64,000 bases of DNA from an uncultured Gelidibacter sp. (GTDB lineage: Bacteria > Bacteroidota > Bacteroidia > Flavobacteriales > Flavobacteriaceae), in assembly GCF_947500795.1 (NCBI RefSeq), contig NZ_CANMTE010000004.1, positions 334,216 to 398,215 on the forward strand, written 5' to 3'. Positions within the stretch are counted from its first letter, which is position 1, and each line of letters starts with the position of its first letter. Below, piece by piece: positions 40,440 through 62,233 of the stretch. The notes under the pieces are model-generated. The model was not told the origin of the DNA, ran no database searches, and worked only from the letters and a program-made list of their open reading frames with translations. Both the position numbers and the translations under genes were made by a program.

Positions 40440-41078
40440 ATGAATAAGTTCTTCCTTATTTTATGCCTCTTTATTTATGCGGTTTCAGAAACCTACAGTC
40501 AACACGAACAAGGTCCTAAACCTACTACGGCAGAACTGAGTGTTTTATTCGTTGGAAACAGTCTAACCTACACCAACAATCTGCCCAAATTGGTTAAGAA
40601 ATACGCCAAACAGGAAGGTGTAAACCTTACTTATAAAATGGTCGCCTTTCCAAATTATTCGCTAGAAGACCATTGGAATGACGGCGAAATTCAAAAACTC
40701 ATAGCAAGCACATCGTTCGATTTTATAATACTCCAGCAAGGACCGTCTTCTCAGCATGACGGGAGGAAAATGCTGATTGAGGATGACAAGAAGTATAGCA
40801 ATCTGGCACAACTCCATAATGCAAAATTGTGTTATTTTATGGTGTGGCCATCCATGAGCAACTACCATACATTTGATGATGTAATTAAAAACCACACAGA
40901 CGCTGCTGCCATTAACAATGCTATACTACTTCCTGTGGGTGAAGTTTGGAAGACCCATTTTGACAACACTAAAAATTTCCAATATTATGGTCCGGATGGA
41001 TTCCATCCCTCATTAGAAGGCAGTAAAATAGTGGCAGAAGTCATCGTGCATCGTCTTCTAAACTCCCTTAAAAAATAA
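40440..41078 (+). CDS. SGNH/GDSL hydrolase family protein
   Basis: LFVGNSLTYTNNLPKL, DFIILQQGPSS, DGFHPSLEGS. Confidence 0.85.
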   Translation: MNKFFLILCLFIYAVSETYSQHEQGPKPTTAELSVLFVGNSLTYTNNLPKLVKKYAKQEGVNLTYKMVAFPNYSLEDHWNDGEIQKLIASTSFDFIILQQGPSSQHDGRKMLIEDDKKYSNLAQLHNAKLCYFMVWPSMSNYHTFDDVIKNHTDAAAINNAILLPVGEVWKTHFDNTKNFQYYGPDGFHPSLEGSKIVAEVIVHRLLNSLKK

Positions 41079-41091
41079 ATCCACGCTATTT

Positions 41092-42024
41092 ATGAAAAAA
41101 TTTCATTTCGTCATTACTTTATTATTTATCTCAAATGGTATTGTAGGTCAAGAAACTTCCTCAGTAACACAATTTGACAGCATCTTAAACCAATTTATCA
41201 ATGTGCGCGATTTTTGCATTTCGAAGGATGGCAAGGAAGCGTTTTTCACAATCCAAAGTCCCAACCAAGAAATTTCACAACTGGCGTACATCACAAAGGA
41301 AAATAATGCATGGTCAGCACCTCAGCTCCTCCCCTTTTGTGATGAATTTATGTATCTAGAACCATTTTTATCATATGACAATAACCGTTTATATTTCGCT
41401 TCTGACCGACCTTTGAACGCCACTAGCACTGAAAAAAAGGATTTTGATATTTGGTATGTTGACAGAGCCACTGCACATGCGCCATGGTCAGCGCCTAAGA
41501 ACTTAGGATTGCCAGTGAATTCAGAATTGGATGAATTTTACCCTTCGGTCAGCAAAAACAACAATCTCTATTTCACTATGGTTTCTCCCGATGGTTTTGG
41601 AAAAGATGATATTTATGTCAGCACATGGGAAAACGGCAGTTATTCCAAGCCCGTTATATTGGACGCCAACATAAATAGTGAAGGTTATGAGTTTAATGCT
41701 TTTATTTCAGCCAATGAAGATTTCATCATTTATTCTAAATATAATGAAGCTGACGGCCTTGGAAGTGGCGATTTGTACATTTCAAAAAAAGACGCGCATG
41801 GGACATGGCAAAAAGCAACCAATTTAGGTGTCGCGGTCAATTCTAAATATATGGACTATTGCCCGTTTTATGATGAAGAAAACAACATCCTATATTTTAC
41901 AAGTAGAAGAAATAATCTGACACCGAGAAAATTTAATTCCGTTTCAGATTTTACTAATTTTATAATGGAAAATGAAAATGGCCTCAGCAAAATTTATAAG
42001 ACTTCCATAAATTTGACAAATTAA
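41092..42024 (+). CDS. PD40 beta-propeller secreted protein
   Basis: Signal peptide and blades such as DNNRLYFASDRP and EENNILYFTSRRN. Confidence 0.8.
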   Translation: MKKFHFVITLLFISNGIVGQETSSVTQFDSILNQFINVRDFCISKDGKEAFFTIQSPNQEISQLAYITKENNAWSAPQLLPFCDEFMYLEPFLSYDNNRLYFASDRPLNATSTEKKDFDIWYVDRATAHAPWSAPKNLGLPVNSELDEFYPSVSKNNNLYFTMVSPDGFGKDDIYVSTWENGSYSKPVILDANINSEGYEFNAFISANEDFIIYSKYNEADGLGSGDLYISKKDAHGTWQKATNLGVAVNSKYMDYCPFYDEENNILYFTSRRNNLTPRKFNSVSDFTNFIMENENGLSKIYKTSINLTN

Positions 42025-42083
42025 GAACCCCATCACACAACAAACCATAAACTAACACGTTAGCAGAAATCAAACCATCACTT

Positions 42084-43316
42084 ATGAAAAAAACAGTTTA
42101 CATAACGCTACTATTAATTTGTCCTTTTATTTCATTTGGGCAAGTAGTTGGTGACTCCATTAATTATGAAGGTCTAAGCAAAGAGATTGAAACCTTAAAA
42201 AAAACAAACGAGACCCTTTTAAATAGCCTTGAAATTACAGGAAAAACCCTGAACGAATTGGTTAGGGACAAAAAAGTTTCAGATGAAACGAAATGGAACA
42301 CGGTAAAGCGAAACATTAATGCATCAGCGCAACTTTACAAAGTGCTTAGTGATGATATCATCAATCTGAAATCGCGATTAACCGACGAAGAATATCAAGG
42401 TTATATTAAATCGTTGAGTAGCATTCAAGAAGGACCATTAGGGTTTTCATTCCAGGAGGTCATTATTGAATCGGCTACTAAAATTGGGATTTTCGATAAA
42501 AAATCTAAGATGGATCGCTTCATCAGTATTGCAAGAAACGTGATGAGCAGTCCGCTTATTGCAAGCATTCCGTTTGTTTCCACCGCAGTAACGGCTTCAA
42601 ATTCTATTTTAGACATTGCTTATGGTTCATCAATGGGCGATAAAAATGCAGATTTAGACCGATTACAAAAGTTTGAAGGTGAGTTGAACAAATACCTAAC
42701 TTACTACACTACTCTTGACAAAGCCAACATTTTAAACCAGTCTTCCAATGGCGACAGAAGAGTGCTTTTAGAAAATCTACAACTCGATCTTTTAAATAAA
42801 TTAAAGAAAGACGCACCACGATTGAATTTCACGGTAGCTGAAAGAAAGACCAATGAAACTATTGATGCCTATTTTAATAGAGTTTTAAGCGCTTTTAATC
42901 ATGAATATAGCATTAAGCATCTTACCGATTTAGAAAATAAATATAAGAATGACAGAGGCGAAATCAACTATTCTGATCTGCTTCAAAAGGAACGTGATGC
43001 CAAATATTATAACAACAACATCTATGGGCTTGTTGAATTGGCTAAAAAATACACGCTGTACTATGAAAATTTCTTTGAAGTAGCTGACAGTTATCAAAAC
43101 AGAATTATTGAAGCGGTAGATTTAGCAAAGGGCAATGGCATTATTGAAGGCAAAAAAGAAAATGGCAAAGTATTAACCGCTGCACAAGTTTATGAGGAAA
43201 TCATAAAAAGCTTAAAGGATAAGAAAGTTGAAAGAGATAACGGGATCAGACATAGCATCAACATTCCTGAATTGAAACAAAAAATGGAACTTGTTGAGGA
43301 ATTTAAACTCATCTAA
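42084..43316 (+). CDS. Secreted hypothetical protein, helical/coiled-coil
   Basis: Intact ORF with signal peptide. Confidence 0.65.
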   Translation: MKKTVYITLLLICPFISFGQVVGDSINYEGLSKEIETLKKTNETLLNSLEITGKTLNELVRDKKVSDETKWNTVKRNINASAQLYKVLSDDIINLKSRLTDEEYQGYIKSLSSIQEGPLGFSFQEVIIESATKIGIFDKKSKMDRFISIARNVMSSPLIASIPFVSTAVTASNSILDIAYGSSMGDKNADLDRLQKFEGELNKYLTYYTTLDKANILNQSSNGDRRVLLENLQLDLLNKLKKDAPRLNFTVAERKTNETIDAYFNRVLSAFNHEYSIKHLTDLENKYKNDRGEINYSDLLQKERDAKYYNNNIYGLVELAKKYTLYYENFFEVADSYQNRIIEAVDLAKGNGIIEGKKENGKVLTAAQVYEEIIKSLKDKKVERDNGIRHSINIPELKQKMELVEEFKLI

Positions 43317-43794
43317 AACCTTAAAATATAGGATTGTGCTCTACATGATTTAAAACCAACTATGCACAACGAGCTTATTTTTGGCTTATGTAATAAACTC
43401 AAACGCGTTTTGACAACAGTCAGGACGCGCTTTTTTTATTTGGTATTTTGAAGGGAAATTTCACAGTAACACACAAACAACAAAACACATAGAATCCACT
43501 TAAATCATAAAAAAACTCGATAACTTCAAAATATTCCCTCATAAATTCCGTATCTTTAAGTATAACAAAGATTCCAATCCAGTTATCATACATGAAGTCC
43601 TTTACAGCATCATTTCCTGATGCCATAATTGTGATTTACCAATCCAAAAGACAGCGCTTCAAAGCATCTAATTGTTATTTTGGAACCTTCAATTCTATAA
43701 AGGTTTGTAATGCATAGGATTTGTGTTCCTCGTTAAATCGTTCGGATTTTGGACACCTTAAAACCATCAATCCTTCCATCTAAAAACTCACGTC

Positions 43795-44244
43795 ATGGCA
43801 AAAATAATATCAGTAGAATTACTCGAGATTCCAGATAAAATCCATGTTGGCGTGAACAACACAGACATCACTGTACTGACTACAATTGATTTTCATGAAA
43901 TGGATATTAAAGGAAATGTGGAGTACTGCCTTCACCTCTTTGTGTATGATGTTCACGGAAAAATTGATCCGCCATTAATCATCTCAAACTGGGACGAAAG
44001 CTATGTGATTTCTATTCAGTCGTCATTAGACAGAAGGGATGATTTTTTAGGGCAAACCACTGTCATGTTTAAGGCGTGTAAACGTCAAGTTACCATCGCA
44101 ACACCCATGATATTGCAATTGGGCTCACTGTCCAGAAGAGGAATTTACCTGACACGTCAATTAGAAATTTTTGCCACTGCTACACCAGCTGTTGGACGTA
44201 TTTCTAAATGGTCTATGCCTTACGAAACGCAAGTGTATCATTAA
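43795..44244 (+). CDS. Hypothetical protein
   Basis: Intact isolated ORF; no family recognised. Confidence 0.55.
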   Translation: MAKIISVELLEIPDKIHVGVNNTDITVLTTIDFHEMDIKGNVEYCLHLFVYDVHGKIDPPLIISNWDESYVISIQSSLDRRDDFLGQTTVMFKACKRQVTIATPMILQLGSLSRRGIYLTRQLEIFATATPAVGRISKWSMPYETQVYH

Positions 44245-44533
44245 GTAAATATCCTTTATTTACAGCTTTAATTATGAGTATTCATGTCATTTAAACTCAT
44301 TCCATGACTTGGATTTTCAATACCCTATCACACCACATCATTTCCTATCAGAAAACACTTTCATAAATATACTTTTAAAACCTACCGAAGAAAATCGTAA
44401 CTTAACATCACTTAATAGTACTTAAAGCCAACACACTCCGCAACGCTGCGATGGCAAAACGGTTTTGAGAATAGTTATGTCAGGTGGAGACCAGAAACCA
44501 CATAAAAAACGGGTAAATTAAAACACTGAACAC

Positions 44534-44746
44534 ATGAAAAAAATATTTTATCTACTTCCTATTTTAGGATTGATGATGGCTTGCAATGAGGAAAAGAAAC
44601 AGCCACCACAGGCCGTTGAAGTAGACAAAGAGCAAACTGAAGCACTCGAAAAATCTATTGAAAATCTTGATGAATTAATGGAATCTACAGAATTTGAAAT
44701 GGAAAGAAACCAAGCCGAAATAGACTCCTTATTAAACACCCTTTAA
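44534..44746 (+). CDS. Small acidic lipoprotein
   Basis: Lipobox (LGLMMACNE); 10 bp upstream of the next ORF. Confidence 0.6.
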   Translation: MKKIFYLLPILGLMMACNEEKKQPPQAVEVDKEQTEALEKSIENLDELMESTEFEMERNQAEIDSLLNTL

Positions 44747-44756
44747 AGATAAAGCC

Positions 44757-45305
44757 ATGAAAAAAATATTAATAATAGCGCTGCCATTCTTTATTTTCAA
44801 CACGTATGTGTTTGCTCAAGAACAAGGCAAAGGTAAAGGTCAACAAAAGCAACACGTAGAGCACGCTCAGAATCAAGGGCAAGAAAAATCAGCCAAAGAA
44901 AAAGCTGGACATGAGAAAGACAATCATAAGCGACAGGCAGAGAAAATGAAGAATGAACCTCAAGGCAATGCTTATGGTAAAAACAAAAATGGTTTAGAAG
45001 GAAAAGCATTCGGACAACAACGCGCTTTTGACGCTAAAAACAGCGCTATAAAGAAAAGTAATTATGCCGAGCAGAGAATTAAGGGCCACGATGACAGAAT
45101 TAAGGATAATGAAGATCGTATAAAAGCAGCGAAGGAAAAGGTTAAAGAACAACGAAAAATGGGCAAAATTTCTGCAGAGGAAGAGAAGATGAAAAATGAA
45201 AAAATTAAACTTGCCGAAGAAAAAGTAAAGCGCATGAAGGATCTTGTAGAGAAGAACAAAAAAGAACTCAAAGATTTAAAGGAAGAACTTAAAAAAACTG
45301 AGTAA
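44757..45305 (+). CDS. Secreted Lys/Glu/Gln-rich coiled-coil protein
   Basis: Signal peptide, then strongly charged helical repeats. Confidence 0.65.
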   Translation: MKKILIIALPFFIFNTYVFAQEQGKGKGQQKQHVEHAQNQGQEKSAKEKAGHEKDNHKRQAEKMKNEPQGNAYGKNKNGLEGKAFGQQRAFDAKNSAIKKSNYAEQRIKGHDDRIKDNEDRIKAAKEKVKEQRKMGKISAEEEKMKNEKIKLAEEKVKRMKDLVEKNKKELKDLKEELKKTE

Positions 45306-45334
45306 GATTAACATTCAGTACAGTTGGTAAAATC

Positions 45335-45382
45335 GCTAGTATGTAGTCAACCCTTGTGGGTTAACGATATACTAGCTTTTTA
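45335..45382 (+). terminator. Terminator-like hairpin
   Basis: GCTAGTAT...ATACTAGC outer arms with internal CAACCC-TTGT-GGGTT stem and T-run. Confidence 0.65.
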
Positions 45383-45681
45383 ATTTCTATGATGTTTTTA
45401 AGTCCATGATTGGCGATGATGTGCAGTTGGTGGTACAGAATTTTAAAGACCATTTTAGAGAACTGGACTTTTTAAAATAAAAGATCTTTAGATGAATTTT
45501 AGTGCAAAAAAACCTTCCTACTTCAAAATATTTTAAAAAATAATGGAGTAACTTTAGCTATAGAAGCAGACGAAACCACAATCGGTTCGGAATAAAGTAC
45601 AAGAATTTGGCCTAAAGGAGCATACTCTTTGAATGCGCATTTCAGGTGACAAGCAATTTAAAATCTTAAACATTAGAACAC

Positions 45682-46191
45682 ATGATCAAGCAAGCTTTAA
45701 TGGCCGAATTTCAACATGAAGCCGAAAATACAAGAAAACTATTATCTATGATTCCAGATAGCGCTTTGGACTATCGCCCACAACCACAACTATGGTCCGT
45801 AGCTGAATTGGCATCGCATATTGCTGAAGTCTACAATTGGTACGACGTAACTTTTAATAAAGATCAATTTGAAATGAGCGGCTATACGTATGATAAAGGC
45901 GACATTAGCAAAAGCGCCAATATTTTAGAAAAATTTGAGGCGAACGTAAAAGCAGCACAACAGGCTATTGAAAAGTCAGATGAATCTCAATACATGAATG
46001 AATGGACGATGACCATGAACGGCAAAACAAGTTTTCCTGCAATGCCTAAAGTGCAGGTGATTAGAGGTTTTTTATATAATCATTTATACCATCATAGAGG
46101 AGAGATGGTTTCACATTTAAGAGCCACTGGCAACAAAGTGCCATCTATGTACGGCCCTACATATGAAGACTCTCAACAGATGGGACAATAA
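45682..46191 (+). CDS. DinB-family protein
   Basis: RPQPQLWSVAELASHIAEVYNW...FLYNHLYHHRGEMVSHLRATG. Confidence 0.9.
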   Translation: MIKQALMAEFQHEAENTRKLLSMIPDSALDYRPQPQLWSVAELASHIAEVYNWYDVTFNKDQFEMSGYTYDKGDISKSANILEKFEANVKAAQQAIEKSDESQYMNEWTMTMNGKTSFPAMPKVQVIRGFLYNHLYHHRGEMVSHLRATGNKVPSMYGPTYEDSQQMGQ

Positions 46192-46220
46192 CCATCACTA
46201 ATTTTACAAAAAAAGACCCT

Positions 46221-46661
46221 ATGGCAACGGTTAATGTATATCTAACATTTGATGGCACTTGTGAGGCTGCCTTCAATTTTTACCGCTCTGTTTTTGGAGG
46301 GGAATTTCAACATATTGGACGTTTTACGGAAATGCCTAAGGATGAAAACTGTGCATCTATAAGTGAGGAAGATGGCAATAAAATCATGCATGTTTCTCTT
46401 CCCATCAGCAGCGCATCTATTTTAATGGGAAGCGACGCTGCTGGCGGCTGGGCGCCTAATTTAATTCATGGGAATAATTTTTCCGTTTCAATTTCTGCTG
46501 AAAGCAAAGCGGAAGCCGACACTCTATTTGATAGCTTATCAGAAGGTGGCACTCTAACGATGCCGATGGCCAAAACTTTTTGGGGCTCTTATTTTGGTAT
46601 GTTTACGGATAAATTTGGCATTAATTGGATGGTGAATTTTGACGAACACCTACCGCATTAA
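46221..46661 (+). CDS. VOC (glyoxalase-like) family protein
   Basis: VYLTFDGTCEAAFNFYRSVFGGEF...FWGSYFGMFTDKFGINWMVNF. Confidence 0.92.
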   Translation: MATVNVYLTFDGTCEAAFNFYRSVFGGEFQHIGRFTEMPKDENCASISEEDGNKIMHVSLPISSASILMGSDAAGGWAPNLIHGNNFSVSISAESKAEADTLFDSLSEGGTLTMPMAKTFWGSYFGMFTDKFGINWMVNFDEHLPH

Positions 46662-46669
46662 AATCAACA

Positions 46670-47095
46670 ATGGCAAAAAACAAAACAGAGTACACTTCTG
46701 AAAGCGTCGTAGAATTTATCGAGGCCTTTGCAAATACTGAGCAAAAAAAGAAAGATAGTTTTGAACTCATCAGACTCATGACCGACCTCTCGGGTTTTGA
46801 GCCAAAAATGTGGGGCCCGAGTATTATCGGGTTTGGTAACTACCACTACACATATGCCAGCGGCCATGAAGGCGATGCTCCTATTATTGGATTTTCGCCT
46901 CGGAAATCGGCCATTTCACTCTACGTTTATACCGGATTAGAGGCACATGCGTATTTGTTGGAAAATCTCGGTAAATTCAAAAAAGGGAAAGCCTGTATCT
47001 ACATCAAAAAACTTTCTGACATCCATCAAGATCAACTTAAACAACTAATAAAAGAAACCATCACTTATAGCACTACAACCTATGGGGAACATTAA
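46670..47095 (+). CDS. DUF1801 domain-containing protein
   Basis: MTDLSGFEPKMWGPSIIGFGNYHYTYASGHEGDAPIIGFSPRK. Confidence 0.9.
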   Translation: MAKNKTEYTSESVVEFIEAFANTEQKKKDSFELIRLMTDLSGFEPKMWGPSIIGFGNYHYTYASGHEGDAPIIGFSPRKSAISLYVYTGLEAHAYLLENLGKFKKGKACIYIKKLSDIHQDQLKQLIKETITYSTTTYGEH

Positions 47096-47570
47096 AATCG
47101 AAATTAAATGGGCATTACTATTTGTTGCCATGTCTTTACTTTGGATGGTATTGGAGAAATTGGCAGGACTCCACAGCACCCACATTGATAAGCATATGTA
47201 TTTGACCAACTTGTTTTTTATACCTGCAATATTGGTTTATATCGCGGCTTTAAAGGACAAGAAGAAAAAAGACTATAACGGACAGATGTCTTATAAACAA
47301 GGTTTTATTTCGGGACTCATCATCACGGCCATTGTAGCCCTTTTTGCGCCTTTTACGCAATGGATTATTTCCACCATCATTACTCCCGAATACTTCCCAA
47401 ATGTCATCGCATATTCCGTAAAAATAGGTTATCACAGCTCTTTGGAAGAAGCACAGGCATTCTTTAATCTTCAAAACTATATGGTTCAAAGTGTGGTAGG
47501 CGCCCTTGTAATGGGCGTTGTAACCGCTGCCGTAGTGGCGTATTTTGTGAGAACCAAACCAACAGTATAA
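47082..47570 (+). CDS. DUF4199 domain-containing membrane protein
   Basis: Four TM segments; YKQGFISGLIITAIVALFAPFTQWI. Confidence 0.85.
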   Translation: MGNIKIEIKWALLFVAMSLLWMVLEKLAGLHSTHIDKHMYLTNLFFIPAILVYIAALKDKKKKDYNGQMSYKQGFISGLIITAIVALFAPFTQWIISTIITPEYFPNVIAYSVKIGYHSSLEEAQAFFNLQNYMVQSVVGALVMGVVTAAVVAYFVRTKPTV

Positions 47571-47678
47571 AAAATGCTTAGTGCTGTGGAAATTAGTTCA
47601 AAAAAGTCTACTTTTCAGTTTCAACACAACACCTATTTTTAACCAGAAGAACTTTAATCAACCTGTAAAACGCAACCT

Positions 47679-48263
47679 TTGAAAAAACGCTATATCCTCT
47701 TCTTAGCCATTCCGCTTCTCATAGTAATTGGGGTTTTTGCTTACAAGAATAACACTACTGTTACCAGCTATGAAGTTGGACAGGAAATTGACAGTTTTAA
47801 TGGCGTAGCGGTGTATTATAATGGGAATGTTGGCAATGTTGAAGGCAGACAATTGGCACCTGACGGTTATAATCTGGGTCTCAAATACCAATGTGTGGAG
47901 TTTGTAAAACGCTATTATTACGAGGCGTTGCATCATAAAATGCCGAACAGTTATGGGCATGCCAAAGACTTTTTTATCGCTTCCATAAAAGACGGGAAAA
48001 AGAACCCACAGCGAAATTTAACACAGTTTACAAATCCGAGTAAATCCAAACCGAAAGTCAATGATTTGGTTGTTTACTCAGGAACAAGATTCAACCCATA
48101 CGGACACGTCTCAATTATTTCCAAGGTATCCGACACTAACATTGAGATCATTCAACAGAATCCGGGACCTTATGCCAGTAGCAGAGCCACTTACAAACTC
48201 AGTCGCATCAATGGGAAATGGCGCATCAACAACGATCAAATTTTAGGTTGGCTTAGAAAATAG
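47679..48263 (+). CDS. CHAP domain-containing protein
   Basis: CVEFVKRYY, NDLVVYSGTRFNPYGHVSIISKV motifs; N-terminal signal/TM. Confidence 0.85.
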   Translation: MKKRYILFLAIPLLIVIGVFAYKNNTTVTSYEVGQEIDSFNGVAVYYNGNVGNVEGRQLAPDGYNLGLKYQCVEFVKRYYYEALHHKMPNSYGHAKDFFIASIKDGKKNPQRNLTQFTNPSKSKPKVNDLVVYSGTRFNPYGHVSIISKVSDTNIEIIQQNPGPYASSRATYKLSRINGKWRINNDQILGWLRK

Positions 48264-48456
48264 CCTTTTTATGATCTGTTCAACCACACACGACCTACAG
48301 ATTCAGGATATTAAAAATTTCTTCCGTTAATTTGCACAGCAATACTAAAAGTTGGCATTGCAATACTACTTTTGTGATGAACATGATGTGCAGCAACGCA
48401 GTTTATTCCCATTGAGGAACATGAAGATTAGGTAATTTAGAGAACAGTGAAAAAGG
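48087..48456 (+). repeat. Left copy of a 370-bp direct repeat
   Basis: Aligns without gaps to 51463-51832 at a constant offset of 3376; 11 mismatches counted by eye. Confidence 0.95.
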
Positions 48457-48795
48457 CCATCCAGCCCGTTCAGTCAAGTGTCAAATATGCCTCTTTAGGG
48501 TTTTAGCCAAAGCCTTATCGCATAATTTTAATTCTAACGTCTTTCCCGGTTTGAATACACTCTTTCCTTTTTTAAGTGTTTTAGGTTGCAAATTTATACC
48601 TCTAGCAATATATTTTCTTTCGGAAAATTACTATTTCGCACAACTATTTTATGCAATTTATTAACATTTACTAGCGGAATTTCGATAGATTTTAAAATTA
48701 ATTTGTATTTTTCAAATTGCTAAATGAATTAATAAAATTGTTCGAATTTAGCCATTTCATAAATAACAGGATTTTTCAGATAATCTCATATTAAA

Positions 48796-49359
48796 ATGTC
48801 CAATAAGAAAAGATTAAAACAAAAACTGAAAACTTCTTTAGAGTTTTCTAAGAACCTATTTGTAACAGGTGCTATCACAGAAACTAGTCCTAAAGTTGAG
48901 CTTGAGATATGCCGGCATATCCCTAGGAATAGGGATGTTATTATAGTAGAATTTGGTATGGGACATGGTAATATAACAAAGGCAATTCTTAATAAAATCT
49001 CACCAAATTCTAAGTTATATTCTTTTGAAGTTAATAAAGAATTCTGTGATTATGTTCGAAAATCAATTCCAGATGAGAGACTCGAAATTATAACCGATGG
49101 GGCTGAAAATATGAGTAAACTTATAAATGAAAAAATTGATGGTATTATTTCTTCAATTCCCTTTTCGTTTTTTTCAAAAGAAAAAGGAATGAGTATTATC
49201 CAAAATGCCTATGACTCTTTGTCAACTGAAGCATATTACAGTCAAGTTTTGTACACCAAATTTAATTTCAAAAAGTTTCAAATGATATTCGACGTTTGTG
49301 AAATTAAAAAGTTCTATGGAATTCCAACGGAATATATTTATCATTGTCAAAAAAAATAA
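48796..49359 (+). CDS. SAM-dependent methyltransferase (phospholipid N-methyltransferase/rRNA dimethylase-like)
   Basis: EFGMGHGNITKAILNKI motif I and an SSIPFSFF segment. Confidence 0.75.
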   Translation: MSNKKRLKQKLKTSLEFSKNLFVTGAITETSPKVELEICRHIPRNRDVIIVEFGMGHGNITKAILNKISPNSKLYSFEVNKEFCDYVRKSIPDERLEIITDGAENMSKLINEKIDGIISSIPFSFFSKEKGMSIIQNAYDSLSTEAYYSQVLYTKFNFKKFQMIFDVCEIKKFYGIPTEYIYHCQKK

Positions 49360-49432
49360 AACTTTCAGAAATCAGGTTATATCCAAAGTTAGAATATCAA
49401 ATAAAATTTTAAAACGAGAATATAAATCAACA

Positions 49433-51286
49433 ATGGAGTCTAAAAATAAACTCACCACAATTTCAATTTTCGTTTTCGTTCAGGCAATACTACCTATAAT
49501 TGCAATTATTATTTATCAACAATCTTATTTATTAAAACCAGAACTTATCATAGCTCACTTATTTGTGGTTTTTTTATTGAATTCTGCAATTACAGGATTA
49601 GGTCTGGTGTTTTTGACAAGGCAATTTATTGATTATAAAAGTTATACAAAATACTTAGTTGCAAGTTTATTTGGCATATTAAATGTCATCTTATATTATA
49701 CTTATCTATTTGCTTTCTCAGGCCAACATTTCAATTCTAATATATTTACCTTAGAAATGGTTCTGGGATACCTCAAATATCTCGATCAACTTGTCGCCAA
49801 CTTTTCGATTAATCCCATTTTAGTTTACGTCATTTTATTAGTCATCCCAATTTTAATTTTTTCAGGAATCCTATTGCTTACCAATTCCATATATCTTCTT
49901 ATGGTAAGCCTTAAAAAATTAATTCAGAGACATCATTTCAATAGCCCGTCGAAGGTAATTAAATATAGAATCATTGGATTTTTACTGTTCGTTGGATTCT
50001 CTTTAGGAGTAATTTCGGCTATTTCTCCTAAAATACCCTATTTCTTGTTCCGTGCCAAAGAACCAATCGCTACCGTTTTCATCAAGAATGATCCTTTTGA
50101 CGGAAAGCTTCTAAAGGACAATAACAAAGGTATCGAAGTAAGAAATTCGTATCCAAAAAACATCGATTTTCAGAAAAAAAATGTTATAATAATTGTTATA
50201 GATGCATTGCGTGCTGATCATTTGAGTCTGTTTGGATATGAAAGAGAAACGACCCCTTTTTTAGATAGCCTTTATGCCTCAGGTAACCTGCGCAAGATAG
50301 ATTTGTCCTTTGCTGTTGTTGCAGAGTCATACAAAGGGATTAATGCGATATTAAGATCTAAAATATGGGCCAATTTAGGGAAGAACGATTTCTCCTTGCA
50401 ACATCTCTTAAAAGATCAAGGATATGAACTCAATTTTATTTTATCTGGAGACCATACCAATTTTGATGGGTTAAAATATTCTTATGGAGATGATAGCGAT
50501 TTCAATACTTATCTAGATGGCGCAATCACTAAAAAATATTCAGACCCCAATGATGACCGAATCATATGGGAAGGTCTTGAAACCATATCTAATTATAACA
50601 AGAACCCTTCTTATTTTCATTTTCATCTTATGTCAGTCCATAACTTAGGATTAAGACTGAATAAATTCAAAAATTACACTCCGGCAGCTAATACAACTTT
50701 TGATGTTGAAAATTATACAAATGGGTATGACAATGGTGTATTACAAGCGGATAATAATATAAAGGATATTTTCAGTAGTTTATCTGAAAAAGGCTATCTA
50801 CAAAACAGTATTGTAGTTATAACTGGAGATCATGGTGAGTCTTTAGGTGAAAAAGGAAAATTTGGACATGGTCGTAGTATATATACCAACCAAATTCTAA
50901 CACCTATTCTAATTTATGATTCTGAAAATGCTGAATACAAGAATACGAGCTATGCAAGTTCAATAGATATTGCACCAACAATAGTTGATCGATTGGGCTT
51001 GCCAATCCCCCAATCTTGGGAAGGGATTTCATTATTTAGTGATACATTCGACAGGGAATTTACATATCACCAACAAGGAACTCAGTATGCAATCATACAT
51101 AGCTTAGAAGATATGAGGTACAAATTGATATATGATAGCAGTACTAGTAAGAAAGAGCTTTTTGAATTAAATTCTGATTTGTACGAGACTAAAAATTTAA
51201 TTGACTCCTTAGATACTAATTATATTAATAATTTAATATGGTATATGAGTGAATTTAATTTAGATGTCAATAAATTATATAAATAG
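49433..51286 (+). CDS. LTA-synthase-like sulfatase/phosphotransferase membrane protein
   Basis: N-terminal TM segments; NVIIIVIDALRADHLSLFGYERETTPFLDSL; ITGDHGESLGEKGKFGHG. ATG at 49433 preferred. Confidence 0.85.
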   Translation: MESKNKLTTISIFVFVQAILPIIAIIIYQQSYLLKPELIIAHLFVVFLLNSAITGLGLVFLTRQFIDYKSYTKYLVASLFGILNVILYYTYLFAFSGQHFNSNIFTLEMVLGYLKYLDQLVANFSINPILVYVILLVIPILIFSGILLLTNSIYLLMVSLKKLIQRHHFNSPSKVIKYRIIGFLLFVGFSLGVISAISPKIPYFLFRAKEPIATVFIKNDPFDGKLLKDNNKGIEVRNSYPKNIDFQKKNVIIIVIDALRADHLSLFGYERETTPFLDSLYASGNLRKIDLSFAVVAESYKGINAILRSKIWANLGKNDFSLQHLLKDQGYELNFILSGDHTNFDGLKYSYGDDSDFNTYLDGAITKKYSDPNDDRIIWEGLETISNYNKNPSYFHFHLMSVHNLGLRLNKFKNYTPAANTTFDVENYTNGYDNGVLQADNNIKDIFSSLSEKGYLQNSIVVITGDHGESLGEKGKFGHGRSIYTNQILTPILIYDSENAEYKNTSYASSIDIAPTIVDRLGLPIPQSWEGISLFSDTFDREFTYHQQGTQYAIIHSLEDMRYKLIYDSSTSKKELFELNSDLYETKNLIDSLDTNYINNLIWYMSEFNLDVNKLYK

Positions 51287-51462
51287 TAACTGCAATCTCT
51301 TATTCCGGTGTCCAAGATTATTTAAAAATCATCCCATTTCAACTTAGATTTTGAGGTATTGGTCCAATATTAATTAGGACGATATAGTCTAAGAGACATC
51401 AAACAAAATAAATTACTGTTTTAGCATTACTAGCAACTATTATCCTCCTAAAAACCAACATC

Positions 51463-51832
51463 AGATTTAACCAATACGGACACGTCTCAATTATTTCCAA
51501 GGTATCAGACACTAACATTGAGATCATTCAACAGAATCCGGGACCTTATGCCAGTAGTAGAGCCACTTACAAACTCAGTCGCATCAATGGGAAATGGCGC
51601 ATTAACAACGACCAAATTTTAGGTTGGCTTAGAAAATAGCCTTTTTATCATCTGTTCAACCACACACGACCTACAGATTCAGGATATTAAAAATTTCTTC
51701 CGTTAATTTGTACAGCAATACCAAAAGTTGGCAGTGCAATACTACTTTTGTGATGAACGTGATGTGCAGCAACGCAGTTTATTCCCATTGAGGAACATGA
51801 AGATTAGGTAATTTAGAGAACAGTGAAAAAGG
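51463..51832 (+). repeat. Right copy of the 370-bp direct repeat, including a CHAP gene 3' fragment
   Basis: Encodes RFNQYGHVSIISKVSDTNIEIIQQNPGPYASSRATYKLSRINGKWRINNDQILGWLRK-stop without the rest of the gene. Confidence 0.95.
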
Positions 51833-53292
51833 GAGTACATGAACAGGATTTCTGGAGCAAATGCCCAGAGTGTCATGGCAGTGGCAAGAAGACGGGACGG
51901 TTACGCAAGCAATTGCGACGCCAATACCAACTAGCGCTCGAACAGTTTGAGAAATCGAATGGCCAAGGGCCAGCTCCAGTCCGACCTAAATCGCCACAAA
52001 CCTTATGTAAAACCTGTAAGGGTTCAGGGTTAATTCCTTCTGCCCACCCTCCTATTCCTGAACATGATATTTATCCGCGCGTGGCTATTATTGGCGGCGG
52101 CATTGGAGGCGTAGCGTTGGCGGTTGCTTGTTTACACCGCGGCATTCCGTTTACACTTTATGAACGCGACAGCAGTTTCAATGCACGATCTCAAGGCTAT
52201 GGACTCACTTTACAACAAGCCAGCAAAGCGATTGAAGGTTTCGGGCTTTTTAGCTTAAAAGAAGGCGTTGTTTCGACGCGGCACGTGGTACATACGACAG
52301 ACGGAACTGTAGTGGGCGAATGGGGCATGCGCAAATGGCTGCAAGACGATTCCAACTCATCACCAAAGCGGACCAATGTCCATATTGCGAGACAATCGTT
52401 GCGCTTGGCCTTACTGGAGCAACTTGGCGGACCTGAGGCCGTGCACTGGAACCACCAGCTAATTGACTTCAATATAAGTGAAGTCGATGGGGTCACCTTA
52501 AATTTCAGTGTTGACGGGACGTTAAAAACCGCTAAAGCAGATCTTGTTGTGGGCGCCGACGGTATTAGGAGTGTGGTTAGAAACTTGCTGATTGGTGACG
52601 CGATTGCACCTTTACGATACCTGGATTGTATTGTCATTTTGGGAATTTGTCCATTATCTGGGCTGAAAGGCGTGGATAGTACCTTGTTGGATTCGGCTAC
52701 GGTATTCCAAACTGCGAATGGCAATGAGCGGATCTATATGATGCCTTACACTGCGGACAGCATCATGTGGCAATTGAGCTTTCCTATGACGGAGCAGGAC
52801 GCCAAATCACTAAGCGACAAAGGGCCAAAAGCACTCAAAGACGAAGCGGTAAGGAGAACCCAGTGGCACACTCCCATCCCGCAAATTGTGGCTGCAACTC
52901 AAGAGGCGCAGATTTCTGGATATCCAGTATATGACCGCGAATTACTCAACGCTGAATTGTTGGAAAAAGCAGGACCCATCACTTTAATTGGTGATGCGGC
53001 GCACCCCATGAGTCCTTTTAAAGGCCAAGGCGCAAATCAGGCGCTGTTAGATGCATTGGCATTGGCCAGAGGCATCTCAAAAGGCTGCAGTCCTTTTTCT
53101 CAATGGAAAGCAAAGGGCATTCGGCAAAGTGTCTTAGCAGATTTTGAATCTGAAATGTTAGCCCGAAGTGCTACTAAAGTAAAAGATTCCGCCGAAGCTG
53201 CACAATTTCTACATTCTGAGATTGTACTCCATGAAAGTGATGCACCGAGAGGACAATGCCTAAAGAAATCAAACGTCCAAAAAAAGGGATAA
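51823..53292 (+). CDS. FAD-dependent monooxygenase with N-terminal DnaJ-type zinc finger
   Basis: CPECHGSG...CKTCKGSG, then VAIIGGGIGGVALAVAC, DLVVGADGIRSVVR, LIGDAAHPMSPFKGQGANQALLDA. GTG start lies in the repeat. Confidence 0.88.
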   Translation: MKKGVHEQDFWSKCPECHGSGKKTGRLRKQLRRQYQLALEQFEKSNGQGPAPVRPKSPQTLCKTCKGSGLIPSAHPPIPEHDIYPRVAIIGGGIGGVALAVACLHRGIPFTLYERDSSFNARSQGYGLTLQQASKAIEGFGLFSLKEGVVSTRHVVHTTDGTVVGEWGMRKWLQDDSNSSPKRTNVHIARQSLRLALLEQLGGPEAVHWNHQLIDFNISEVDGVTLNFSVDGTLKTAKADLVVGADGIRSVVRNLLIGDAIAPLRYLDCIVILGICPLSGLKGVDSTLLDSATVFQTANGNERIYMMPYTADSIMWQLSFPMTEQDAKSLSDKGPKALKDEAVRRTQWHTPIPQIVAATQEAQISGYPVYDRELLNAELLEKAGPITLIGDAAHPMSPFKGQGANQALLDALALARGISKGCSPFSQWKAKGIRQSVLADFESEMLARSATKVKDSAEAAQFLHSEIVLHESDAPRGQCLKKSNVQKKG

Positions 53293-53435
53293 CAACTTCG
53301 TATTGCAACAGCACTTAGTGGCGCGTATCAAAAATAAAATATGTAGGTTTTGCTCTTCAGAACCCCAAAAGTTCAGTATTTTTAGTACCTAAAGTCACCA
53401 AAAACAGAGCACTAACACATACCGCATATCACACT

Positions 53436-55181
53436 ATGGGCAAACCAACCTTAATTAAAAACGGCTTATTTTTCTCAGGAGACCAAAATGAAAAAGCAAC
53501 GGTAAAAGACATTCTCATTCTTGAAAATGGTCGCATAGGGGACATTGGCACTTTGGAGGCTGATGCGGATGTAGAGGTCATTGATGCTGAAGGAAAGTGG
53601 GTTGTTCCCGGTTTTATTGATTCGCACACCCATTATGATGCTGAACTCATTGCCTCTCCCGGACTTAAGGAATCTGCTCGGCATGGGGTTACTTCCGTCA
53701 TTCTTGGCAGCTGTTCTGTCTCCGCTATATTCAATTCGCCTGAAGATGTTTCGGACTCATTTACGAGAGTTGAAGCCATTCCGAGAGATGTTATGTTGCC
53801 TTTATTGGAGCGTGTTAAAACTTGGCATACTGCCAAAGCGTGGAAAACCTATGTCAACAATCTGCCATTAGGCATCAACGTAGCCTCATTTGTTGGCCAT
53901 TCCGATTTACGAATGAAAGCCATGGGCATTGACCGTTCTTTAAAAGCTAATGAAACGGCTACTAAAGCAGAGCAGGAGGCCATGTATAACATGCTTAGCG
54001 ATGCGTTAGATGAAGGTTTCATCGGCTTGTCAACCATGGACAATCCGTGGGATAAAATGGATGGCGACAGGTATTGGTCGCATAAAACTCCTTCCTTTTA
54101 TTCCTCTTGGAAAGAGCGCAAGAACCTTATAGCATTACTACGTACAAGAGATGCAATTTTGCAAGGCGCACCAAATCTTGTAACGCGTGTTAATGCGCTC
54201 AACTACATGTTGGCAAGCTCAGGACTCTTTAGAAAACCACTTAAAACCACTATGATTGCCATGATGGATTTAATTGGCGACCGTTATATTTTACCATTAA
54301 TTTCCACTGGAAGCAAGGTTATAAATACGCTGGCGAATGCAAATTTCAGAATGCAGTCCCCTCCTATTCCATTCACCGTGTATTATGATGGTGTTGATTC
54401 TGTAATGTTTGAAGAATTCCCAAGTGGCGAAGCTATGAGACATCTCGCCAAGAAATTGGACGAACGCAATGATTTGATAAAAGACCCGGAGTTTAGAGCA
54501 TCATTCAAAAAAGAAATAAAGAAAAAATTCGCACCTAAGGTGTGGCATAAAGATTTAAGCAAAGCCGTTATTCTGGAGTCGCCCGATGAACGCATGATAG
54601 GCAACAACTTTTATGATCTTGCGGAAGCGCATGAGCAGCACCCAGTGGACTACTTTTTGGACAGCATAATTCAATATGATAAAAAGATCAGATGGACCAC
54701 AACTATTGCCAATGACAGGCTTGAAAAATATGACATGCTCTACAATCATCGACATAATCTCATTAGTTTTTCAGATGCCGGCGCACATTTAAATAATATG
54801 GCGTTTTACAATTTCCCTTTAAAAATGATGAAAATCGTTCAAGAATCCATCGCTAAAGGGAAACCAATTATGACTATGGAGAAGTGCATTTGGCGATTAA
54901 CAAAAGAACAAGGCGATTGGTTTGGATTGGATTGTGGCCATCTTGCAGTAGGTAAGATAGCAGATTTGGTAATTATTGATCCTGAAAAATTTGATGCTGT
55001 TACGGAAACTGTAACCCTCGGACAGATTGAAGAATTTGACAATTACAAGAGGCTTGTCAACAGAAACGAAGGCACTGTGTCTCGGGTTATGGTAGGTGGA
55101 AAAACTATTTTTGAGAATGACAATTTTGTGCCCGACTATGGCACCACCACCAAATACGGACGGTTTTTAGAGAAAATTTAA
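53436..55181 (+). CDS. Amidohydrolase (N-acyl-D-amino-acid deacylase-like)
   Basis: VPGFIDSHTHYDAE, GVTSVILGSCSVS, SFSDAGAHLNN. Confidence 0.9.
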   Translation: MGKPTLIKNGLFFSGDQNEKATVKDILILENGRIGDIGTLEADADVEVIDAEGKWVVPGFIDSHTHYDAELIASPGLKESARHGVTSVILGSCSVSAIFNSPEDVSDSFTRVEAIPRDVMLPLLERVKTWHTAKAWKTYVNNLPLGINVASFVGHSDLRMKAMGIDRSLKANETATKAEQEAMYNMLSDALDEGFIGLSTMDNPWDKMDGDRYWSHKTPSFYSSWKERKNLIALLRTRDAILQGAPNLVTRVNALNYMLASSGLFRKPLKTTMIAMMDLIGDRYILPLISTGSKVINTLANANFRMQSPPIPFTVYYDGVDSVMFEEFPSGEAMRHLAKKLDERNDLIKDPEFRASFKKEIKKKFAPKVWHKDLSKAVILESPDERMIGNNFYDLAEAHEQHPVDYFLDSIIQYDKKIRWTTTIANDRLEKYDMLYNHRHNLISFSDAGAHLNNMAFYNFPLKMMKIVQESIAKGKPIMTMEKCIWRLTKEQGDWFGLDCGHLAVGKIADLVIIDPEKFDAVTETVTLGQIEEFDNYKRLVNRNEGTVSRVMVGGKTIFENDNFVPDYGTTTKYGRFLEKI

Positions 55182-55360
55182 ATGGCATACCTCTCCGGCA
55201 ATCCCATCAAAAACTAACTGGAAATTGACCTTGGAAAGCAAACATGATAAAGCGCTTCCAATGTCATCATCAAAATTGAACCACAACAGGACGCCAACGC
55301 ACCTATTACATAGATTCTAAGAATTTAAAAGGATATAAGCACTGTAAAGGCTATATACTA

Positions 55361-55747
55361 TTAACCACTCGTTTTTTCAATCATATGATTGATGACTTGA
55401 GTATGTTCGTGCTGCGGGCTGAACATCACTATTTCAGCATCTTCATTGACCTTTACATTATGACCGGGAGGCCAGTAAAAAAGCTCGTTTGCGTGTACAG
55501 TTTCTTGTTTTCCGGACACATCCGTTGTGGTAATGCTTCCGCTTGTGAGAAATCCCCAATGCGGGCATTGGCACGAATTACCTTTTAAGCCAATAAACAA
55601 GGGTGTTGTATCAACGCCGGCAGAAAGGCTAAAATATTCTGCGCTAATTTTTCCTAATCCGGTAGCATCTCCAAAATCAGTCTGTTGACGGAGAATAGCA
55701 CCAGGAATCTGCATTTTGACTTGAATGTCGTCTTTTGCGATTTTCAT
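55361..55747 (-). CDS. Cupin-like hypothetical protein
   Basis: FYWPPGHNVKVNEDAEIVMFSP-type beta-rich sequence. Confidence 0.55.
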   Translation of the reverse strand: MKIAKDDIQVKMQIPGAILRQQTDFGDATGLGKISAEYFSLSAGVDTTPLFIGLKGNSCQCPHWGFLTSGSITTTDVSGKQETVHANELFYWPPGHNVKVNEDAEIVMFSPQHEHTQVINHMIEKTSG

Positions 55748-56167
55748 GAGTGTTGTTTTTAGATGATATGAATAATATTATCCATATAAGAATGTTTTAA
55801 TCCCTGCTCAATCAGACAAAAAACAATTCCAACGAAACAACAACTATAAAATTTCTCATCACTAAATTAACCTAATTACACTCATTATCAAAGCATTGAA
55901 CTGTTAAATAAGATGACATCACAATTCATTTGTTCGCTGAATTCCGAAGCACAACGCATTTCAAAAATTCCAAAATCCATCTGAGGCCACAGCATTTCCG
56001 TCGCTTAATAATCGCCAACCATAATCGCTTACAAGCATTAAAAATCCAATAAAAAGAGACGATTCTAAAATAAATATACTTCACATTAGAAGCATAAAAA
56101 ATTTACAGGGCATATAAATTAAAATGCAAAACCCAATTATCCTATCTTTGTCCAACTAAATACTAAG

Positions 56168-57130
56168 ATGGCCTCTACTCTACTTTCATCACCTTTACAA
56201 GGATTTACAGATTTCAGATTTCGTAATGCCTTCCATCATTACTTTGGCGGGATTGACACCTACTATGCACCATACATTAGGCTGAATGGGAAGTTAAAGA
56301 TTAAGCAATCTTATGAAAATGACTTATTACCTGAAAACAACACCACTTTAGAGGTCATTCCGCAGGTGATAACCAATGACGCTGAAGAGTTTTTATTTGT
56401 TGCCAAATACGTGCAAAGTTTAGGTTATAAAGAGTTGAATTGGAATTTAGGCTGCCCGTATCCTATGGTTACAAAATCAGGAATGGGTTCAGGTTTAATT
56501 TGCAATCCCACAAGAATTGATGAGGTATTACATAGGGCACACACCGAAACTGATATTTTGGTATCGATGAAAATGCGGATGGGTTATGACAATCCTGAAG
56601 AAATTTTAGATGCATTTCCTATTTTAGATCAATATCCGCTTAAAAACATTGCAATTCACGCCAGAATTGGAAAGCAACTTTACAAAGGGCCGGTCAATTT
56701 AGAGGCTTTTGAAAAGTGCATCAGCAGCACCAAACACAAGCTGTATTATAATGGCGATATTACGAGTGTTTCGGCCTATAAAGCCATTGCAGAACGCTTT
56801 CCGGAGATTGATCATTTTATGATTGGCCGCGGATTGATTGCCGATCCGTTTTTGCCGAGCATGATAAAAAATGACACGACCGAATATCCCGAAAATAGAT
56901 GGGCTATTTTTTCAGAATTCCATGACACTATTTACCAGCAATATGACGCTTATTTGTCAGGACCTACGCCTATAAAAATGAAGATGTTAGGTTTTTGGGA
57001 GTTCTTTTCGCAATCTACTTCCAATCCGCAAAAAACTTTTAAAGCCATAAAAAAAGCGGTAAACCCTGTAAAATACAGACAGGCGGTGGATCAGATCATA
57101 AAAGCAGAAATGAAAATTAAAAGGTCTTAG
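56168..57130 (+). CDS. tRNA-dihydrouridine synthase family protein
   Basis: SPLQGFTDFRFR, NWNLGCPYPMVTKSGMGSGL, VSMKMRMGYDNPEE, HARIGKQLYKGPVNLEAF, YNGDITS. Confidence 0.92.
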   Translation: MASTLLSSPLQGFTDFRFRNAFHHYFGGIDTYYAPYIRLNGKLKIKQSYENDLLPENNTTLEVIPQVITNDAEEFLFVAKYVQSLGYKELNWNLGCPYPMVTKSGMGSGLICNPTRIDEVLHRAHTETDILVSMKMRMGYDNPEEILDAFPILDQYPLKNIAIHARIGKQLYKGPVNLEAFEKCISSTKHKLYYNGDITSVSAYKAIAERFPEIDHFMIGRGLIADPFLPSMIKNDTTEYPENRWAIFSEFHDTIYQQYDAYLSGPTPIKMKMLGFWEFFSQSTSNPQKTFKAIKKAVNPVKYRQAVDQIIKAEMKIKRS

Positions 57131-57194: not shown

Positions 57195-58286
57195 TTATAA
57201 ATAACTTTTCCCATAGCCATCCAAATCATCTAAAGGACTTTTAACCTGATTTATTTGTTTTTGGGTGACATGCGTATAAATCATGGTGGTTTTAATGTTG
57301 TGATGCCCCAATAAATCTTGAATTATTCTAATATCTGTACCTGTTTGCAGCAGATGAGATGCATAGCTATGTCGCAAACCATGTATTCCTATTGATTTAT
57401 TAATCCGAGCTTTTTGCATGGCATTCCTAAAAACACTTTGCACACTCCCTTTGGAATATTGTCCGCCATACTGACCTTCCAACAAATATTCTTTTGGCTT
57501 AAACTCATAATAATACGCCCTTAGCAACGGCACCACGGAAGTTGGCAGTGGGACATACCTGTCTTTTTTCCCTTTTCCTGCCGCGATGAGCACAATTTTA
57601 TCTTTAGAATTGATGTGCGCTAATTTTAGATTCACCACTTCACTTACCCGCAATCCCATACCATAACACAGTTGCAATGCCAAAAGATGCTTGGCGTTAG
57701 TCACCTGACGGAACAGTCTTTTTATTTCTTGTTGTGTGAGTAATTTTGGCAATGTTGACGGTTTTTTAGGACGTGGAATGTCAAAAAACATTTTGTTGTG
57801 GTGAAGCACCTGCTCAAAATAAAATTTAATGGCATTGATCTTACCATTAAGTTTTCGCTCCTTCATTTTCTCATTCTTTAGGCAGTAAAGGAAATACGCC
57901 TTAAGCCTTTCCGGCGTTAGTTTGTCGACTGGATACTCTCTAATTAAGAGCAGCAAATGTTTTAATTCAGCACAATACACACGGACGGTGTTCTGGCTAT
58001 AGGCTTTAAGTTGTAATTGGTTTATGAAATCTGACATTGCCTTTTGGTTGACAGGATGGATATCTTGCAACCATTTATTTTCAATGTCTTCTTGGGGCAT
58101 TTGCAATGCCGTTCTAACAGCGGGAAGATCGGGCATGTACCAGGATTTATAGGTTGGATTCCATCGGGCAGAAGGCAATTTCTTTTTCAAATCGTTTATG
58201 AGTGCGTGCTCGTACGGAAACTTGATCCAAATGACTTGTTTATTATGGAGTATTCCTGATTGAAAGTTGCATTTGTCTAAGTTCAT
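57195..58286 (-). CDS. Tyrosine recombinase, putative integron integrase (IntI-like, divergent from the cassette array)
   Basis: Catalytic R-H-R-H-Y: GMGLRVSEVVNL, IHGLRHSYASHLLQTG, LLGHHNIKTTMIYTHV; C-terminal VKSPLDDL resembling the IntI RSPLD tail; divergent from the attC-flanked cassettes. Confidence 0.85.
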   Translation of the reverse strand: MNLDKCNFQSGILHNKQVIWIKFPYEHALINDLKKKLPSARWNPTYKSWYMPDLPAVRTALQMPQEDIENKWLQDIHPVNQKAMSDFINQLQLKAYSQNTVRVYCAELKHLLLLIREYPVDKLTPERLKAYFLYCLKNEKMKERKLNGKINAIKFYFEQVLHHNKMFFDIPRPKKPSTLPKLLTQQEIKRLFRQVTNAKHLLALQLCYGMGLRVSEVVNLKLAHINSKDKIVLIAAGKGKKDRYVPLPTSVVPLLRAYYYEFKPKEYLLEGQYGGQYSKGSVQSVFRNAMQKARINKSIGIHGLRHSYASHLLQTGTDIRIIQDLLGHHNIKTTMIYTHVTQKQINQVKSPLDDLDGYGKSYL

Positions 58287-58452
58287 AGCACCTTGTTATA
58301 AGGTATATCACAACAAAACAACATTAGGATATACATCCTAAAGATATACAAAATAAGCAACACCAAAACCAATTAACCCATTGATTTTCAAGGAACAGCA
58401 TAAGACTACACTATTTTGACAATTTGTAGAAGATATTTAATATATTTGAGTG
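58287..58452 (+). promoter_or_regulatory. Putative attI region with promoter reading into the cassette array
   Basis: Between integrase start and first GTT core; TTTG (58415-58418)-N22-TATATTTG (58441-58448) fits the Bacteroidota TTTG/TAnnTTTG promoter; inverted repeat TAGGAT-ATAC-ATCCTA at 58325-58340. Confidence 0.6.
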
Positions 58453-59420
58453 TTGTAAGTAATGCCGAAAAACCCAGAAACCAAGTGAATAAAACAATAT
58501 TTGAAATTACCAAAATGGATTGTCCTTCAGAGGAAAATCTTATCCGAATGAAATTGGACGGAATTTCAAGCATTGCGAATTTGGACTTTGATATTCCGAA
58601 TCGAAAATTGACCGTTTTTCACAGCGGAGAAATTGACCAAATCGAAAAGTCCGTTATCGAATTGAATTTAGGTGGAAAAAAAATCTCAACGGAACAAACC
58701 GACCAAACGGAATTTAAAGAAAACGAAAATCAGAAAAAACTACTTTGGTCTGTACTTGCCATAAATTTTGCTTTTTTCATTATTGAAATGACAACAGGAA
58801 TTATCTCAAAATCTATGGGACTTGTTGCCGATAGTTTAGATATGCTTGCGGACAGTTTTGTGTACGGAATTAGTTTGTTTGCGGTTGGCGGAACAGTAAT
58901 AAAGAAAAAACGGATTGCCAAACTTGCTGGATATTTTCAAATAATACTTGCGATTATTGGATTTGTAGAAGTCTTGAGAAGATTTTTCGGAAACGAGAAA
59001 CTTCCCGATTTTTCAACAATGATTATAGTTTCGATTTTTGCACTTATTGCAAACGGAATTTGTCTTTATATTTTGCAAAAGTCAAAGAGCAAAGAAGAAG
59101 CACATATGAAAGCGAGTATGATTTTCACTTCGAATGACGTGATTATCAATTTGGGAGTAATTATTGCAGGAATTTTAGTGCATTATTTGAGTTCTAATAA
59201 ACCTGATTTGATTATCGGAACAATTGTTTTTGCATTGGTAATTCAAGGAGCATTTCGGATTTTGAAATTAAGTAAGTGAACTAAAAAAGCACTACTTACA
59301 ACAACGTGTATAATTAATGGCTGGTTCTCGCCTACTTACGAAAATCCTCGCGGATTTTCTATTCGGTTTTTATTTGCTAAATTAGGTGCTTAAACACGCC
59401 ACTAATCATACACAAAACCG
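58453..59420 (+). mobile_element. Integron cassette 1 (968 bp, cation transporter)
   Basis: Starts after G of GTTGTAAGTAATGC (58452-58465); its R'' GCACTACTTACAAC (59289-59302) is complementary at 13/14 positions. Confidence 0.85.
58485..59279 (+). CDS. CDF-type cation transporter with N-terminal HMA-like domain
   Basis: N-terminal FEITKMDCPSEENLIRMKLDG; TM region SKSMGLVADSLDMLADSFVYGISLFAVG. GTG at 58485 preferred because the listed start lies in the attI. Confidence 0.85.
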   Translation: MNKTIFEITKMDCPSEENLIRMKLDGISSIANLDFDIPNRKLTVFHSGEIDQIEKSVIELNLGGKKISTEQTDQTEFKENENQKKLLWSVLAINFAFFIIEMTTGIISKSMGLVADSLDMLADSFVYGISLFAVGGTVIKKKRIAKLAGYFQIILAIIGFVEVLRRFFGNEKLPDFSTMIIVSIFALIANGICLYILQKSKSKEEAHMKASMIFTSNDVIINLGVIIAGILVHYLSSNKPDLIIGTIVFALVIQGAFRILKLSK

Positions 59421-59429
59421 TTGTGGTGC
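59289..59429 (+). other. attC-like site 1
   Basis: R'' TTACAAC to R' GTTGTGG about 131 bp; arms GTGTATAATTAATGG (59306-59320) and CCACTAATCATACAC (59399-59413), 13/15 complementary. Confidence 0.85.
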
Positions 59430-60117: not shown

Positions 60118-60125
60118 TTACCCAC
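59989..60125 (+). other. attC-like site 2
   Basis: R'' CCACAAC to R' GTTACCC about 132 bp; arms GTATAAAAATAATTGCGG (60002-60019) and CCGCAACTATTCTTATAC (60093-60110), 16/18 complementary. Confidence 0.88.
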
Positions 60126-60239
60126 AAGCTAAAAAAAGAGCAATACACCAAAAATGTTTCATTTTTCCATAACCATTTCCAGTAAAAGATTTTAAGTTCC
60201 TATCAAAACTTAAAAAAGGAATAGACTATTCAATTATTT

Positions 60240-60255
60240 ATCGTAATATTGCAAT
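60240..60255 (+). promoter_or_regulatory. Putative ArsR operator/promoter element ATCGTAATATTGCAAT
   Basis: Identical to 696-711 upstream of the other arsR. Confidence 0.6.
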
Positions 60256-60278
60256 TAAACAATGAAGGGATATAAAAA

Positions 60279-60587: not shown

Positions 60588-60639
60588 ATTTTTTAATTAA
60601 ATCAATCGTTAAATCGCAATAAACAAATAATATAAAGAT

Positions 60640-61107: not shown

Positions 61108-61130
61108 AATAATAATTTAATATTAGGAAA

Positions 61131-61766: not shown

Positions 61767-61804
61767 ATGTTTTCAAAACCTTTTAATTCAAAATAGAACT
61801 AATT

Positions 61805-62221: not shown

Positions 62222-62233
62222 AAAAAAGAGGTT

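Follow-up and report, generated by a model that had tools for sequence, protein, structure and literature searches.

A direct repeat around a two-gene module in a Gelidibacter genome, possibly left by two inserts joined out of register

The locus analysed here lies in a draft genome of an uncultured Gelidibacter sp., in a window of 64,000 nucleotides (the whole stretch of DNA studied, to which all positions refer). It can be read as a scar in which unrelated cargo of different lineages was stitched side by side at one site. Between the genes of a lysine-rich protein (Lys) and a FAD-dependent monooxygenase (FADmo), the window carries a block of genes ending in a CHAP-domain protein (block X), followed by a foreign-looking module of two further genes (module Y) that is bracketed by direct repeats. 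FADmo's promoter region makes up the noncoding half of the repeat, both junctions of the module can be placed, the sister species hold neither insert, and the flanks are foreign. In our estimate there is about an even chance that the locus arose when two different inserts of a single intergenic site were joined out of register, the 370-bp overlap being what remains of this. The features of the locus are the following:

41000..57115 (ends approximate), no strand: chromosomal segment of foreign ancestry enclosing the locus, delimited by the drop of identity to sister species G005
44757..45305, plus: Lys, lysine-rich protein with a likely signal peptide, the left neighbour of FADmo in the sister species
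45682..47570, plus: remainder of block X (DinB, glyoxalase-like, DUF1801 and DUF4199 genes), absent from this locus in the sister species
47679..48263, plus: CHAP-domain protein (PF05257), intact, last gene of the inserted block X; nearest relative 69% identical, in another genus of the family
48087..48456, plus: left copy of the repeat, made up of the 3' end of CHAP, the FADmo promoter region and the opening 10 nt of FADmo; homology is safe from about 48098
48264..48446, plus: duplicate of the FADmo promoter region, now facing the module
48447..48456, plus: first 10 nt of FADmo (GTGAAAAAGG), the remainder absent; left junction of the module
48457..48795, no strand: AT-rich left spacer of the module; relatives searched, none found
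48796..49359, plus: SAM-dependent methyltransferase, nearest to phospholipid/ornithine-lipid N-methyltransferases but under the curated cut-offs
49433..51286, plus: divergent membrane-anchored protein of the sulfatase/phosphoethanolamine-transferase superfamily
51413..51476, plus: probable relic of a Lys-FADmo intergenic region of sister type (23/27 positions of 51450-51476 agree with the G005 FADmo leader)
51463..51832, plus: right copy of the repeat, made up of a 3' fragment of CHAP, the FADmo promoter region and the beginning of the intact FADmo; homology is safe from about 51474
51823..53292, plus: FADmo (PF01494), intact, GTG start

The repeat and the FADmo promoter region

The extent of the repeat was established by pairwise alignment. 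The segments 48087-48456 and 51463-51832, at a constant offset of 3376, form a gapless alignment of 370 positions with 11 mismatches (~97% identity), located at 48092, 48097, 48131, 48182, 48227, 48236, 48273, 48335, 48346, 48358 and 48383. This is the repeat described by the first-pass annotation, with a trimmed left edge: the two leftmost mismatches, 48092 and 48097, lie inside the junction zone, and both carry the base found in the sister species' FADmo leader. Only from about 48098 onward is the homology to CHAP therefore certain, which leaves a safe repeat of about 359 bp with 9 mismatches. The point of divergence is exactly where it had been placed, identity being lost abruptly after GTGAAAAAGG (48447-48456 / 51823-51832), and the reading frames of the intact CHAP gene beside the left copy and of the intact FADmo gene beside the right copy were both confirmed. 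In the 3.46-Mb genome the repeat matches these two places only, far beyond chance.

The repeat is composed of three parts: 48098-48263 is the 3' end of CHAP, the following 183 nt are the FADmo promoter region, and the final 10 nt belong to FADmo itself, whose start resembles that of other FADmo genes. The left copy belongs to a sequence of CHAP, FADmo promoter and a FADmo gene cut after codon 3; the right copy to a CHAP fragment, the promoter and the whole of FADmo. Assignment of the noncoding part relies on conservation. Several Flavobacterium species and the Gelidibacter genome G007 share a block around AAATTTCTTCCGTTAATTTGTACAG, with the later AATACTACTTTTG, at 135-145 nt upstream of FADmo, and 8 scanned FADmo loci match the noncoding part at a nearly equal distance to the start (at most 3 in 60 shuffled controls). 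This conservation rules out that the noncoding half is CHAP's own downstream DNA, put before FADmo at a chance match of TGAAAAAGG. Since the noncoding half is FADmo's own promoter region and the left copy keeps 10 nt of the gene, a CHAP-promoter-FADmo order must, as we read these sequences, once have existed. The left promoter copy may now drive the module. Downstream of it, at 48447-48510, the truncated FADmo start opens into a short frame of about 19 codons that ends in a stop.

Divergence between the copies was examined by type of position. In the CHAP part all the core differences (4/4) are silent, an outcome with a probability of 0.002-0.007 if this part were unconstrained. The copies differ at 4 of 55 third positions, within the 2.5-14% range observed between the window and G005 in undisturbed genes, and at 5 of 193 noncoding positions. 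The silent differences fit two functional alleles better than a decaying duplicate. The argument is suggestive only, because the changes are four in number and the left copy is still constrained; some of them may even postdate the joining and have arisen in the constrained copy. The silent CHAP differences and the third-position value agree with the earlier suggestion that the divergence indicates a related-strain donor or an old event.

Sister species and the imported segment

Two sister species, G005 and G001, share the gene order of the window from ~34 kb to 57 kb, barring small gene losses near 42-44 kb. In both, Lys is followed by FADmo after ~350 bp, and this gap is without DinB, glyoxalase, DUF1801, DUF4199, CHAP and the module; CHAP and DUF1801 were not found anywhere in either genome. 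The FADmo of the window forms one clade with those of G005 and G001 (99/94 in the tree); a foreign origin of FADmo from a distant genus was rejected on this ground. Given this clade and an order conserved on both sides, the site is therefore the same in all three. Because G005 and G001, whose synteny with the window extends to either side, have neither the CHAP block nor the module there, CHAP-promoter-FADmo is not, on this comparison, the ancestral locus. The first-pass annotation had proposed that deletion of 3376 bp rebuilds an ancestral locus: the arrangement so rebuilt did exist, as promoter identity and the 10 nt of FADmo indicate, but it was not ancestral, being absent in G005 and G001. 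An uninterrupted CHAP-370 bp-FADmo target, for which a comparison of relatives had been proposed, was found neither in 10 genomes of the genus nor in 80 FADmo loci from other genomes, and none of the latter (0/80) has CHAP near FADmo. Among the genomes compared, one per species, neither X nor Y was found on its own at the Lys-FADmo site. Homologues of DinB (80% identical) and DUF1801 (69%) are present in G008, elsewhere in its genome. In one genus mate the CHAP homologue is broken, with split matches and internal stops (G003:C3:385421-385889; L008, L010). Two other genomes of the genus are those of Gelidibacter algens and G. salicanalis, as shown by identical FADmo sequences (L029 with L092, L086 with L094), which places the window's genome in Gelidibacter.

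The identity profile along the window delimits a foreign segment. The window and G005 are 93-97% identical over most of 15-40 kb and 68-84% identical from 41 to 57 kb, where the identity of the window to G005 is about equal to its identity to G001 and third-position divergence from G005 climbs from 0.03-0.14 to 0.39-0.57. Between G005 and G001, identity is 91-92% over Lys and FADmo, 86-87% just past them, and 86-92% across 9 to 13 kb of locus L151. As G005-G001 identity stays high where window-G005 identity falls, the window's 41-57 kb is, on these values, the odd one of the three and imported. The FADmo side is also imported; it shares homology with the native gene, without a crossover point that can be placed. 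Synteny with the sister species stops at 57115, just ahead of a tyrosine recombinase gene (57195-58286).

The module and its right junction

Base composition separates the parts of the locus, with a GC content of 0.305 for the module, 0.39 for block X and 0.48 for FADmo. The methyltransferase of the module does no more than resemble OlsG and PmtA, its scores (44.9 bits against a cut-off of 350 for OlsG, 43.2 against 250 for PmtA) not reaching the curated values. Its relatives, 52-54% identical, occur in two other genera, and within the stretches read no similar sulfatase-like gene adjoins them. The second protein reaches the Pfam Sulfatase family (121 bits) and has weak matches to phosphoethanolamine transferases, but falls below the curated score for EptA (47.7 bits against 561); by inspection it shows a DHGESLGE stretch and a hydrophobic N-terminal part. 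It has no match at E<=1e-40 in 400 genomes of the family, its own genome excepted. As a guess from these resemblances, the two genes would form a lipid or surface-modification pair.

The surroundings of these genes were searched for other elements. A candidate minus-strand gene fragment in the left spacer (...GKTLELKLCDKALAKTLKRHI) was rejected, its matches being at chance level only. Searches for RNA elements and tRNA targets gave none, the window being without a tRNA gene. CHAP has no phage match, and a search for viral relatives of CHAP and of the sulfatase-like protein found none. A phage or plasmid source of the module was rejected, in view of the lack of viral relatives and of plasmid matches that are distant only.

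The right junction probably preserves a trace of another context. The segment 51450-51476 is probably a relic of the sister-type FADmo leader: the leader stretch that it matches ends 4 nt before the start codon in G005, and it scores 34 against G005 and 32 against G001, compared with at most 21 against other FADmo leaders. At 27 nt, with a whole-genome E-value of 0.34, it is telling by its position alone. Next to it, 51413-51450 resembles, with the order kept, the beginning of the G005 intergenic region that holds this leader; the match is weak and does not exceed the best chance matches elsewhere in the window. Leader relic and CHAP have AGATT[C/T]AA in common at the right junction; they appear to meet there, because the leader's base is found at the two mismatched positions of the repeat's left edge. 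Because the sister-type relic abuts the right copy, the module probably stood before a sister-type FADmo previously, and came from the same locus in another lineage.

Origin of the arrangement

These observations can be assembled into the following history, to which we give about even odds. The Lys-FADmo gap would be an insertion site whose cargo differs from lineage to lineage. In one of them, block X, from DinB to CHAP, would have stood directly before FADmo and its usual promoter; in another, module Y, the methyltransferase and the membrane sulfatase-like gene, would have preceded a sister-type FADmo leader. Recombination between X-type and Y-type DNA within the imported stretch of ~16 kb would then have made the chromosome of the window: X would have been joined to the left end of Y at codon 4 of FADmo, and the right end of Y, at AGATT[C/T]AA, to the 3' end of CHAP in another X-type piece, one that continues into FADmo. 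The overlap of the two X-type pieces, ~360 bp, would be the repeat. We infer the order of these events, and an illegitimate joining during uptake of linear DNA.

Processes of this kind are described in the literature on natural transformation, which covers homology-facilitated and double illegitimate recombination (de Vries and Wackernagel 2002; Hulter and Wackernagel 2008, cited in PMC4437187) and the joining of DNA at short stretches of common sequence, anchored by homology (PMC4437187, PMC6382021). As in the homology-facilitated process described there, foreign DNA would be joined at a short shared sequence while homology anchors the other side, and the non-homologous junction does contain such a sequence, AGATT[C/T]AA. 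That process is, however, known from experiments in other bacteria, whereas here it is inferred from one genome, in which a 360-bp overlap remains. The locus also resembles insertion hotspots with alternative cargo in that the flanks are conserved and the content varies between species, and differs from them in that two cargos adjoin in one genome.

A Campbell-type integration would give the same final map. A circle carrying the module and the 370-bp CHAP-FADmo junction piece would have entered a CHAP-FADmo chromosome, which did exist, by a single crossover, and the anatomy is exactly what such a crossover gives: direct repeats of homology, continuous with both halves of the target, bracket an insert that is reversible through the copies. 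Yet the 3.4 kb contain no replication, mobilization or integration gene, and a circular donor left no sign in plasmid or viral collections: none of the plasmid records covers even 80% of the sulfatase-like protein, all matches being less than 60% identical. The sister-type leader relic at the right junction is foreign to this scheme, which leaves unexplained how the circle acquired the precise 370-bp piece beside it. We regard such an integration as unlikely, though still to be reckoned with.

A tandem duplication of X with FADmo, after which most of the middle, including the first FADmo, was replaced by the module and 370 bp were left over, is improbable. It accounts for a left copy that ends inside FADmo and a right copy that begins inside CHAP, but it requires an extra duplication of which no other remnant is seen, and the silent CHAP differences suit two alleles better than a dead duplicate. 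Very improbable, too, is an artefact in which the assembler joined two strains or a collapsed repeat. The genome is a draft of 19 contigs, but both copies lie inside one contig of 398 kb (contig 4, of which the window is 334216-398215), the contamination estimate is 0.81%, and the 11 differences between the copies and the uniqueness of each junction speak against a simple duplication in assembly. Insertion elements leave short target duplications, which 370 bp far exceeds. That a transposon or integrase inserted the module, with the repeat as target duplication, is hardly credible despite the tyrosine recombinase gene ~5 kb away, because the module has neither transposase nor recombinase and its ends lack inverted repeats, this recombinase lying outside the insert in a window without tRNA genes.

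Returning to the joining of two inserts out of register, the direct repeats imply that the copies could recombine and delete the module by ordinary recombination. A broader reading, which we consider doubtful, would make the Lys-FADmo gap a site of cargo exchange where the inserts of two lineages stand in tandem, and would place a reversibly deletable lipid or surface-modification pair under a captured FADmo promoter. What is known of the locus is ordinary horizontal transfer: the scar is unusually readable, its kind is ordinary. If the order of events can be read from more strains, it would show a non-mobile gene pair entering without transposase or integrase and staying prone to loss.

Three further features of the window were noted. 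The tyrosine recombinase gene is followed by genes for a cation efflux protein, a low-molecular-weight phosphatase-like protein and an SBF-family transporter; this set (57195-63274), absent from the regions read in the sister species, looks like a metal or arsenic resistance island. A direct repeat of 208 nt with 76% identity links 749-956 to 60277-60484, with 59.5 kb between the copies. Finally, a long array of a 9-nt unit (GGACCTGCT-like) occupies 10957-11315 and probably encodes a collagen-like Gly-X-Y repeat on the minus strand.
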